Assembly: GCA_021776395.1 (NCBI GenBank)
Contig: JAJFFZ010000187.1
Span: 1-53,948, forward strand
DNA length: 53,948 bases
Direction of reading: 5' to 3'
DNA from: Hyphococcus sp.
Lineage (GTDB): Bacteria; Pseudomonadota; Alphaproteobacteria; Caulobacterales; Parvularculaceae
The position numbers and the translations under genes were made by a program. The first letter of the stretch is position 1. Every line of letters begins with the position of its first letter. Below the pieces are notes generated by a model, which was given only the letters and a program-made list of their open reading frames with translations, was not told the origin of the DNA and did not search any database. This document shows, piece by piece, positions 34,530 to 38,315 of the stretch.

Positions 34530-34603
34530 TGGAGCGGATGGAGGGAATCGAACCCTCATCTTAAGCTTGGGAAGCTTCTGCTCTACCTTTGAGCTACACC
34601 CGC
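34530..34603 (-). tRNA. tRNA-Gly (anticodon CCC)
   Basis: Read on the minus strand. The acceptor arm GCGGGTG pairs with CATCCGC including one G-T pair. The D-arm is GCTC...GAGC, the anticodon loop TTCCCAA has anticodon CCC (genome 34569-34571), and the T-arm is GAGGG-TTCGATT-CCCTC. Discriminator T is followed by an encoded CCA. The first anticodon-stem pair is a G-A mismatch, leaving a four-pair stem plus mismatch. It reads glycine codon GGG. Confidence 0.93.
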
Positions 34604-36712: not shown

Positions 36713-36756
36713 GCATTTCCAAGCGAAGTGGGAACCGGTTCGCGTGAAGGAAATGC
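36713..36756. repeat. Alphaproteobacterial palindromic intergenic repeat
   Basis: GCATTTCC (36713-36720) pairs with GGAAATGC (36749-36756); the interior carries the palindrome GAACCGGTTC (36732-36741). From memory, this AGCATTT...ACCGGTTC...AAATGC unit is a widely scattered repeat in alphaproteobacterial genomes. It starts 2 bp after the radical SAM stop and lies 26 bp before the DUF938 gene. Confidence 0.7.
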
Positions 36757-36782
36757 GACCAAATAATAACTTAGGGCGGGCG

Positions 36783-37451
36783 ATGACGGATAAATCGGAC
36801 GGCGCACCTCGCGAAATAGCCTTGGAAGCCCGCACCATAGCGGGCGAAAAACTGTTCTCGCCTTCGGCTGCGCGTAACCGTGACGCAATCCGCGATGTGG
36901 TGTTGGCGGTGATGCCGAGCGAGGGACAAATCCTCGAGATTGGCGGCGGCACTGGCGAGCATGGCGTCCATATGGCCGCCGCGGCGCCGGGGTTGGTCTG
37001 GCATAGCGGCGATCCCGACCCCGCCTCGCGCGCATCAATCGCCGCGTGGATAAAGGACGCCGGCCTCGCCAACCTCAAAGGCCCGCACGCGATTGACGTG
37101 ACGGCTGATGACTGGGGCGTAGAAGCCGGCGCGCCGCTTGATGGGGTGGTCTCGTTCAACATGATCCACATCGCGCCATTCGCCGCAGCGACAGGGCTTT
37201 TCGCCGGCGCCGGGCGGGTGTTGAAGCGCGGCGGGATCTTGTTTCTTTACGGGCCGTTTACGCGCGCGGGCGTTCATAGTGCGCCCTCCAACGTGGCCTT
37301 CGACGCCAGCCTTAAATCTCGTGATGCGCGCTGGGGCGTTCGTGACCTGGAGCACGATCTGGCGCCGTTGGCGCAGAAAAATGCGTTTGCGCGCGAGGCG
37401 ATTGTCGAGATGCCGGCCAATAATCTCTGTGTAATTTTTCGAAAACAATAA
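36783..37451 (+). CDS. DUF938 SAM-dependent methyltransferase-like protein
   Basis: A 222-residue protein with methyltransferase motif I ILEIGGGTGEHGVHMA (about 46-61), an acidic motif II region (WHSGDPDPASRAS), and the DUF938 signature VVSFNMIHIAPFAAATGLF followed by GGILFLYGPF. Substrate unknown. The start at 36783 (MTDKSDGAP) is preferred over the upstream in-frame sequence, which overlaps the repeat and the radical SAM gene end. Possible operon partner of the radical SAM gene, with the repeat between them. Confidence 0.9.
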   Translation: MTDKSDGAPREIALEARTIAGEKLFSPSAARNRDAIRDVVLAVMPSEGQILEIGGGTGEHGVHMAAAAPGLVWHSGDPDPASRASIAAWIKDAGLANLKGPHAIDVTADDWGVEAGAPLDGVVSFNMIHIAPFAAATGLFAGAGRVLKRGGILFLYGPFTRAGVHSAPSNVAFDASLKSRDARWGVRDLEHDLAPLAQKNAFAREAIVEMPANNLCVIFRKQ

Positions 37452-37540
37452 TACCGCGCTGAATTTTCAGGCGCAATTTTCCCCCGCATATCGGTTTAAA
37501 AATTGTGGAAAAGTTTTGATCGACGCGGCGCGGTAAGTTG

Positions 37541-38049
37541 GTATCCTGACAATACTTCGCGGCCCTTTGAGACAATGTGTTGTGTTTGCCTAGCAGCAGG
37601 TTGGACGGGAAAACGGAGTGATGTGCTAGCCGGAGGCGACGCTCAGACGCCATTCGGTACAGCGGAATAAAGGTGAATTCCGCCGGACATCTGACGAAGC
37701 TGAGTGCTTCGGCCTTGGAACTGGCGCTCGCAAGAGCGAAAGGGAAAAGGACCCGGTATCGTCGTGTACAGCGGGTCAAGCTGTGGATCGGCGCGCGGCA
37801 TCGATTGCAATGAGGGCGCAAGCCTTTGTTGGAAGAGGTGAGGCGGATCTGGAGGACGCGGGAGTGTTGGATATGACGGCGGTTATATTCAAAGCCCGCG
37901 CCCGAAAGGTCTAGCGGCGGAAGACGTAAGCTGCAAAGCGTGCGTTTAACCGAAGCTTCGAGGAACATTCAAGTTCTCACTGGATTGGGGTGTCCTTCGA
38001 ATTTTCGCGAGAGCGGAAGAAAGGGAGCAGCTTTTGTTGCTCCCTTTTT
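37541..38049 (+). ncRNA. Large structured RNA candidate, no family recognised
   Basis: About 500 nt without a plus-strand gene but dense in short, well-formed helices, ending in an intrinsic terminator. Local pairings in order: ACAA/TTGT (37572-37583), CTAGCA/TGCTAG (37590-37629), GCGGAAT/ATTCCGC (37662-37683), CGAAGC/GCTTCG (37695-37711), CGCTC-GCAA-GAGCG (37725-37738), GACCCG/CGGGTC (37750-37777), AGGGC-GCAA-GCCTT (37813-37825), and CGCGGG/CCCGCG (37857-37900) enclosing GGATAT/ATATTC (37869-37890). Two loops are GNRA tetraloops (GCAA), and a third, GAGA, closes TTTCGC/GCGGAA near 38003-38018. RNase P, tmRNA and group II domain V hallmarks were looked for and not found. The 5' end is a guess. 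Confidence 0.5.
38020..38049 (+). terminator. Intrinsic terminator ending the structured RNA candidate
   Basis: AAAGGGAGCA (38020-38029) pairs with TGCTCCCTTT (38038-38047). The stem can extend by G-T and C-G to a TTTT loop. T residues run to 38049, followed by CTTTGTTTT. There is no protein gene for over 560 bp upstream on this strand, so it must terminate a noncoding transcript or the DUF938 mRNA. Confidence 0.85.
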
Positions 38050-38111
38050 CTTTGTTTTCGCTCGCGGCTAATCCTCGCTTCGCCCCCATGGCTCAAGAGG
38101 GGGCCTGCGCG

Positions 38112-38176
38112 GGCGCGGCGCATTCGCGGTCCGCGCGCGAAGGCGCGCTCATTATGGCTCGACCGCATTCGCGGTC
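38112..38176. repeat. Short palindromic direct repeat upstream of terB-like gene
   Basis: GCATTCGCGGTC occurs at 38120-38131 and at 38165-38176. The second copy is part of the perfect hairpin GACCGC-ATTC-GCGGTC (38161-38176); the first lies inside GCGCGG...CCGCGC. The copies look like two related palindromic units. Otherwise the 38057-38315 gap shows no gene. Confidence 0.45.
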
Positions 38177-38315
38177 GGGGCGCAGTCGCGCCCTTCACAT
38201 CAATCGGCCATCTTGGCGCGCAAATAAATATTTTTACGGACATTGCCGTGGCGCTGCGCGGAGCCTACCTTCCGGCCAAATTCCCCACCCATCACGGAAC
38301 ATGGAGCATAGCGAA

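Follow-up and report, generated by a model that had tools for sequence, protein, structure and literature searches.

A gene for a large structured noncoding RNA in Marinicaulis and one sister genus

The 53,948-nucleotide (nt) stretch analyzed here (contig JAJFFZ010000187.1 of assembly GCA_021776395.1; hereafter, the window) belongs to a Marinicaulis (Parvularculaceae) genome, and comparison with homologous loci confirms that its positions 37554-38049 (+) are a gene for a large structured noncoding RNA. The RNA, of about 496 nt, has homologues whose fold covaries far beyond phylogenetic nulls, and it matches no family of Rfam. On the sequence evidence, it is a new RNA family, so far known from Marinicaulis and one sister genus, and missing from both Rfam 15 and the open-licence literature on these bacteria. 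Its start most likely lies near 37554, judging from the position of the -10 element and the beginning of the first helix, P1. A large noncoding RNA had been claimed at 37541-38049 in an earlier reading of this DNA (the original prediction). The identity is supported by the covarying fold, the lack of an Rfam family and the lack of a kept reading frame, and the 3′ end stands; the start does not, as 37541 falls just before the -10 hexamer (37542-37547).

The fold, its covariation and the known RNA families

Folded by itself, the plus strand of 37541-38049 reaches -220 kcal/mol (z = -6.3; none of 100 dinucleotide shuffles was as good), and the minus strand gives z = -3.0 in the same test. The comparison is based on an alignment of 24 full-length sequences (hereafter, the homologues), which are 55-97% identical to the window's copy; the split copies of two genomes (G006 and G010), a relic in a third (G018) and shorter duplicates of the same loci were left outside it. 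RNAalifold assigned the alignment -293 kcal/mol, versus -134 ± 8.7 in 40 phylogenetic nulls (best null -156), in which the inferred substitutions were reassigned along the tree to different columns, column rates being preserved, before refolding. Pairs with changes on both sides, counted when canonical in at least 85% of the cells, numbered 71, versus 7.5 ± 2.9 in the nulls (maximum 13). Columns with more than 50% gaps were dropped for this test.

Covariation was tested with our own scripts, in the manner of R-scape rather than with R-scape itself. Given the RNAalifold structure, 13 of its 154 pairs were significant at E<0.05, while 200 random sets matched for distance averaged 0.155 such pairs and never exceeded 2. 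The single-sequence fold of the window's copy, when given instead, had 10 significant pairs of 170 at the same level. When the minimum-energy fold of the window's copy by itself was transferred to the 14 homologues of less than 72% identity, 80.8% of the cells stayed paired, and only 35-41% were paired when the fold was slid by one to three columns. Covariation across homologous intergenic regions, which the original prediction had proposed as a check, is therefore present.

The consensus of the homologues comprises 22 helix segments. One is the terminator; another, a closing helix (37546-37548/37754-37756), is weak and overlaps the -10 box, and was discounted. We grouped the consensus segments into ten hairpin domains, P1 to P10, as follows ("both-side" counts the pairs changed on both sides, and percentages are cells paired):

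37554-37619 (+): domain P1, with the inner stem P1b (37573-37583/37593-37603) and a conserved GCCUAG loop; outer stem 6 pairs, 88%; P1b 11 pairs, 8 both-side, 93%
37620-37691 (+): domain P2, a three-way junction; closing stem 7 pairs, 6 both-side, 82%; inner arm 10 pairs, 8 both-side, 92%; outer arm 4 pairs, 78%
37695-37711 (+): hairpin P3, loop about CUGAG; 6 pairs, 6 both-side, 99%
37713-37750 (+): hairpin P4, GCAA tip in the window; base 5 pairs, 5 both-side, 89%; weak upper part, 6 pairs, 5 both-side, 73%
37760-37793 (+): hairpin P5, with a conserved CAGCGGGUC side; outer 5 pairs, 99%; inner 5 pairs, 94%
37794-37845 (+): hairpin P6, GCAA tip in the window; base 7 pairs, 5 both-side, 99%; upper segments 86% and 92%
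37846-37911 (+): hairpin P7; 5, 8 and 4 pairs, 95%, 93% and 90%
37914-37956 (+): hairpin P8, variable; 16 pairs, 14 both-side, 87%
37958-38000 (+): hairpin P9, holding the invariant UUCUCACUGGAUUGGGG at 37974-37990; 16 pairs, 6 both-side, 95%
38003-38018 (+): hairpin P10, GAGA tip in the window; 6 pairs, 3 both-side, 89%
38019-38049 (+): intrinsic terminator, a covarying stem with a U-run, also matched by a terminator scan; 13 pairs, 3 both-side, 98%

The original prediction, made from the window alone, had described at least nine compact helices in series, three GNRA-type loops and a perfect intrinsic terminator. The consensus yields the ten domains plus the terminator, the loops are present in the sequence (GCUC-GCAA-GAGC, GGC-GCAA-GCC and CGC-GAGA-GCG), and the terminator stem has 14 pairs in the window (38018-38049). 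Pairing is most complete (98-99% of the cells) in P3, the terminator, the P5 outer stem and the P6 base, and least complete in the upper part of P4 and the outer arm of P2. P5, P6 and P7 abut without a linker. In P9, the 17 aligned columns of UUCUCACUGGAUUGGGG are identical in all 24 homologues. The outer arm of P2 is about 30 nt longer in five homologues, P7 carries a 13-nt extra module in seven, and P8 is missing from the sister-genus homologue (L027, genome G031). The P9 stem of L027 has one extra U on its 5′ side and one extra A on its 3′ side, which fits a stem longer by one pair. Outside the nested fold, a pseudoknot scan returned four candidates of four pairs each, all weak. Two CUAG segments, at 37590-37593 in the P1b loop and at 37911-37914 at the P7/P8 junction, could base-pair with each other, in the same molecule or across two.

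An Rfam match had been named in the original prediction as the result that would remove the novelty. At gathering thresholds, Rfam 15 finds one tRNA in the whole window and nothing at the RNA locus, and only tRNAs in 15 homologue loci. When matches of E up to 5 were admitted over 37400-38300, ten appeared, nine of them over the terminator and all far below their gathering scores. The best sub-threshold match, CsrC (16.6 bits against a gathering score of 61, E 0.013), covers only the terminator (38018-38049). OLE, ROOL and GOLLD, the large ornate RNAs discussed below, gave no match above the gathering threshold in the window or the 15 homologue loci, and none at E<=5 in the region; the same searches found no group I or group II self-splicing intron. 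RNase P RNA, alpha-type tmRNA and 6S RNA are likewise structured and present once per genome, but each sits at other loci. In the window's own genome, the RNaseP_bact_a model matches contig C160, not C98, and alpha_tmRNA matches C228, neither of them at the locus, and ARAGORN finds only a tRNA-Gly in the window; 6S RNA, also absent from the locus, reaches 34.5 bits on C202, below the cut-off of 46.4. Overall, RNase P RNA was found in 35 of 36 genomes (21 of the 22 genus members among them) and alpha tmRNA in 20 of 20; 6S RNA passed E<=0.001 in all 20 genomes searched and the cut-off in 19. The open-licence literature mentioning Marinicaulis has no paper titled on an RNA of this genus, and it yielded nothing on Parvularculaceae noncoding RNA or on Parvularcula structured RNA; publication elsewhere is possible in each case.

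On the plus strand, the longest stop-to-stop frame ranges from 46 to 122 amino acids (aa) across the homologues, with a mean of 86 aa versus 96 aa in Markov-1 nulls, and no frame is kept, in line with the original prediction, which had seen no plausible plus-strand protein. Variable columns show no codon-phase bias (138, 146 and 142 of 170 each, P 0.50). The original prediction had also proposed looking for a preserved minus-strand frame, 37312-37968, as a sign against a structured RNA. Followed from its aligned start over 37540-37968, this frame is free of stops in four sequences (the window's, its two closest relatives and L034) and contains 1 to 8 stops in the other 20, leaving the structured RNA unrefuted. 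It matches no Pfam family. The idea that the locus is a coding gene with structure only apparent, for a short plus-strand peptide or through the minus frame, draws on the antisense frames that run long in many homologues (reaching 175 aa, with 143 aa in the core of the window), whose average of 127 aa is slightly above the Markov-1 null mean of 113 ± 32 aa. Antisense frames of this kind are not unusual for the composition, since 19% of the Markov-1 nulls reach 143 codons, the length in the window. With the minus frame so often stopped, no codon phase, net length differences that are not multiples of three in 15 of 23 homologues, and compensatory changes that follow RNA pairing, we find a coding gene hardly credible.

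Promoter, candidate operator and terminator

The conserved sequences upstream of the RNA, recognized by comparison of the homologues, are the following:

37477-37488 (+): left arm of an upstream inverted repeat, consensus TTTTCC.CA; imperfect in the window (TTTTCCCCCGCA), arm identity to the majority 0.75
37504-37512 (+): right arm of the same repeat, TGTGGAAAA; exact in 23 of 24 homologues, mean identity of the nine columns 1.00 (rounded)
37520-37525 (+): -35 element TCGACG; TCG in 24 of 24
37542-37547 (+): -10 element TATCCT; mean identity 0.93 over 37542-37548

The distance from the -35 to the -10 element is 16 nt in 23 of the homologues (L007 is among them by eye; the script gave 17) and 17 nt in L027. 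The spacer bases 37526-37534 average just 0.48 identity. Together with the terminator, this arrangement points to transcription from a promoter belonging to the RNA gene, which would end at the intrinsic terminator. In the covariation test with given structure, two terminator pairs were significant; the terminator scan is weak by itself, with 1 found versus 1.5 expected in shuffles.

The TGTGGAAAA arm is likely an operator site, and the inverted repeat as a whole is a candidate operator of some regulator. The left arm reads TTCC.CA in 19 of the 24 homologues and the full TTTTCC.CA in 14. A strict form of the dyad, TTTTCCNCA-N{12,26}-TGTGGAAAA, was looked for in 14 genomes; it occurs in seven of them, each time at this RNA gene only. 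TGTGGAAAA resembles a DnaA box. Control of the promoter by DnaA was considered and found no support, as neither TTTTCC[AC]CA nor TTATCCACA was found near dnaA at the 18 of 25 loci where dnaA was recognized; the zero counts at the other seven loci carry no meaning.

Distribution and genomic setting

A DNA search of 60 genomes gave matches in 27, within 2 of 21 genera. All 28 genomes of the genus in the collection were searched and 26 match: 23 at full length by the profile, two with the RNA split over two contig ends (G006 and G010), and one with a relic (G018). One sister-genus genome, G031, also has a copy, the P8-less L027. The two genomes with split copies, G006 (C85/C99) and G010 (C72/C93), are close to each other, and their contigs end at one and the same point of the RNA; the two parts share about 110 nt of query range, which is probably due to assembly overlap.

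Across the order, a search with the 17-letter motif only, one optional base allowed, found it in 25 of 299 genomes, all in the two genera. In named genomes, a 19-letter motif returned 30 stretches. The RNA profile matches 22 of them, in records named Marinicaulis, Parvularcula, Parvularculaceae or Alphaproteobacteria, the isolate Marinicaulis flavus SY-3-19 included. The other eight (three of Runella, one each of Desulfosporosinus, Mangrovimonas and Persicitalea, and two metagenome-assembled genomes, one deltaproteobacterial and one proteobacterial, L061) have no profile match beyond the motif and are thus attributed to chance. Plasmid and phage records gave no match to the RNA, and viral contigs lack the exact motif.

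A covariance model built on the central 165 positions (the core model) finds the RNA in 26 of 62 family genomes at 111-163 bits. The other family matches score 22-26 bits, besides two at 33 bits that are the second halves of split copies; they involve three genomes lacking a real copy (G118, G238 and G019) and extra matches of 22-25 bits in G009 and G020. In the class, where 385 genomes were searched, the sole real copy is the window's, and 8 of the 384 others pass E<=0.001, at 23.1-27.5 bits. Since the calibration is rough and real copies score 111-163 bits, we take these weak matches of 22-27.5 bits as background. A profile search of 11 weak-match or related loci reached at best E 0.002 (9.2 bits), over short stretches.

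The conserved neighbour of the RNA gene lies directly upstream:

36747-37451 (+): DUF938 methyltransferase-like gene (PF06080, E 4.9e-67)

In the window, the upstream genes are Ysc84/SYLF, radical SAM and DUF938, and homologues of the latter two are present in the 24 full-length loci. DUF938 stands directly upstream in 18 of these, the display of the other six being masked by antisense frames. The downstream genes vary by clade (TerB-like, transporter, sucD/sucA and others, the names outside the window being our reading of the sequences). DUF938 also occurs in seven other genera of the family, where the DNA behind it gives no profile match; thus, the ancestor of Marinicaulis and the sister genus probably acquired the RNA next to DUF938.

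In G018, the relic (L025; C270, 1930-2001, minus strand) covers about 70 nt at the 3′ end of the RNA and includes the terminator. An 18-row DnaA tree, in which some branches are long and unsure, pairs G018 with G024 as its sister (support 100/99), and in G024 the DNA behind a contig-cut DUF938 holds no RNA. The relic and the absence of the RNA from the sister genome together read as loss in one subclade. The relic is flanked on one side by a sulfotransferase-like gene (PF03567) and on the other by a repeat-rich gene in convergent orientation, its repeats of the GDD type, and a similar repeat-rich gene follows DUF938 in G024 (by eye). In the window, a tRNA-Gly (CCC) lies at 34533-34603 (-), about 3 kb upstream of the RNA; tRNAs occur in 7 of the 15 homologue loci scanned, perhaps as the same conserved neighbour. 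GC-rich repeats such as cattcgcggtc were noticed by eye at 38100-38190, in the gap that separates the RNA from the TerB-like gene.

Proposed function and relation to large ornate RNAs

We consider it fairly probable that this is a free-standing RNA gene with its own promoter, probably under operator control, whose product acts in trans as the scaffold of a ribonucleoprotein through docking at P9. A protein bound at the TTTTCC.CA / TGTGGAAAA inverted repeat would probably control the promoter, and the ~496-nt transcript would fold into the ten hairpin domains in series. The RNA would then serve as a scaffold of the 'ornate large RNA' kind. Its invariant P9 hairpin (UUCUCACUGGAUUGGGG, with a UCACU loop, an AAUUC/GGAUU stem and a GGGG side) may be the main docking site for a partner, the conserved elements of P5 and P7 may be further docking sites, and the peripheral arms (P2, P4, the P7 tip and P8) vary by clade. 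Comparison of the homologues establishes the gene, its fold, the conserved promoter and terminator sequences and the distribution, whereas transcription, the operator protein, ribonucleoprotein assembly and action in trans are inferences. Stated more broadly, and with a shade less confidence, we would expect an undescribed large RNA machine, dating to the ancestor of Marinicaulis and its sister genus, with a dyad-regulated promoter, that forms a trans-acting ribonucleoprotein or an RNA-only assembly through the invariant 17-nt segment.

Several observations weigh against the scaffold proposal. A sigma-70 promoter scan, which needs 9 of 12 matches, reported no promoter in the region. The strict dyad is absent from the other seven of the 14 genomes searched, the window's own included, because one arm deviates in them. 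No RNA was found in G019 (76% complete) or G024 (88% complete), and G018 has lost all but its relic, so that the RNA is dispensable over evolution. Finally, an all-pairs covariation test (columns with more than 35% gaps dropped) found 1 of 127,765 pairs at E<=0.05, a pair that belongs to the structure. Twenty-four related sequences give such a test almost no power; named structures and phylogenetic nulls were tested next, and the covariation support emerges when the structure is given.

By its kind, as judged from sequence comparison, the RNA falls among the large ornate bacterial RNAs, and no homology to them was detected: it has a fold of several hundred nt supported by covariation. In the part of PMC12286853 drawn on here, OLE, ROOL and GOLLD are described as forming homo-oligomers, unusual RNA-only dimers or cages, with poorly understood functions. 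OLE (Ornate Large Extremophilic) RNA, of about 600 nt, similarly combines an elaborate conserved fold with a mechanism given as unknown, and it binds several proteins and localises to the membrane (PMC12286853 and PMC9723947, both in part); the new RNA differs in giving no match to its covariance model and in belonging to Alphaproteobacteria rather than, as these sources in part have it for OLE, to Gram-positive extremophiles or anaerobes. ROOL is likewise large (659 nt in the solved example) and has no function described in the same part of PMC12286853, which places it in phages and prophages, often near tRNA islands. By contrast, the new RNA has no phage or plasmid match, its motif no viral-contig match, and neither window nor homologue loci a ROOL or other Rfam RNA family at the gene. 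The invariant segment near the 3′ end is a likeness to GOLLD; many GOLLD members, however, exceed 800 nt and occur in phages or prophages (PMC12286853, in part), and the new RNA gives no match to the GOLLD covariance model.

The strongest alternative to a ribonucleoprotein scaffold, though an unlikely one, is an RNA-only homo-oligomer, a cage or dimer without a protein core that self-assembles by loop-loop contacts such as those between the palindromic CUAG segments. The large serial-hairpin architecture with conserved loops suits it, and OLE, ROOL and GOLLD provide precedent (PMC12286853, in part). Of the 24 homologues, 23 have CUAG in the P1b loop and 21 have it at the P7/P8 junction, and L026, the most divergent member of the genus, has CUGG and CCAG, retaining the pairing. 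On the other hand, L035 breaks the pairing, L027 lacks the second CUAG, the ends of that segment are occupied by P7 and P8, and the pseudoknot scan did not single out the CUAG pair.

Size, GNRA loops, abutting helices and an invariant core segment also occur in ribozymes, and these features are what the RNA offers in favour of an unknown ribozyme or the remnant of a domesticated mobile intron that cleaves or splices RNA. We consider this improbable: neither introns, RNase P nor any further ribozyme family gave a match above gathering thresholds or, in the region, at E<=5, each genome has one locus with conserved upstream synteny, and there is no mobile gene among the neighbours scanned in the window. 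The degenerate ribozyme entertained in the original prediction finds no support, as no ribozyme family of Rfam matches and the fold is intact, not decaying, in the 24 full-length copies.

Marginally less probable still is that the RNA is no separate gene but a long structured 3′ untranslated region, or a regulatory element, belonging to the DUF938 operon. The constant presence of DUF938 homologues at the 24 full-length loci, directly upstream in the 18 unmasked ones, would agree with this, but a fixed-spacing promoter and TGTGGAAAA intervene between the DUF938 stop codon and the RNA, and in seven other genera of the family DUF938 does without it. We give the least weight among these functions to a protein-binding sponge of the CsrB/CsrC type, titrating a small RNA-binding regulator by repeated GGA motifs: several such motifs were seen by eye, and the CsrC model gave its sub-threshold match, but this match is confined to the terminator, and what is conserved is a specific fold with one invariant hairpin, not many equal loops.

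Few large bacterial RNAs have a conserved fold of such size. As almost all species of the genus have kept this one, they seem to produce an RNA machine or scaffold of considerable size. The RNA's narrow phylogeny, its single locus, its presence in the named isolate Marinicaulis flavus SY-3-19 and its absence from a pair of sister genomes within the genus render gain, loss and function directly testable. If our reading is correct, the RNA would join the short list of large ornate bacterial RNAs, where it would stand out by its young, narrow distribution and its retention at a single chromosomal locus; a young, large and apparently chromosomal RNA bears on how such RNAs arise.
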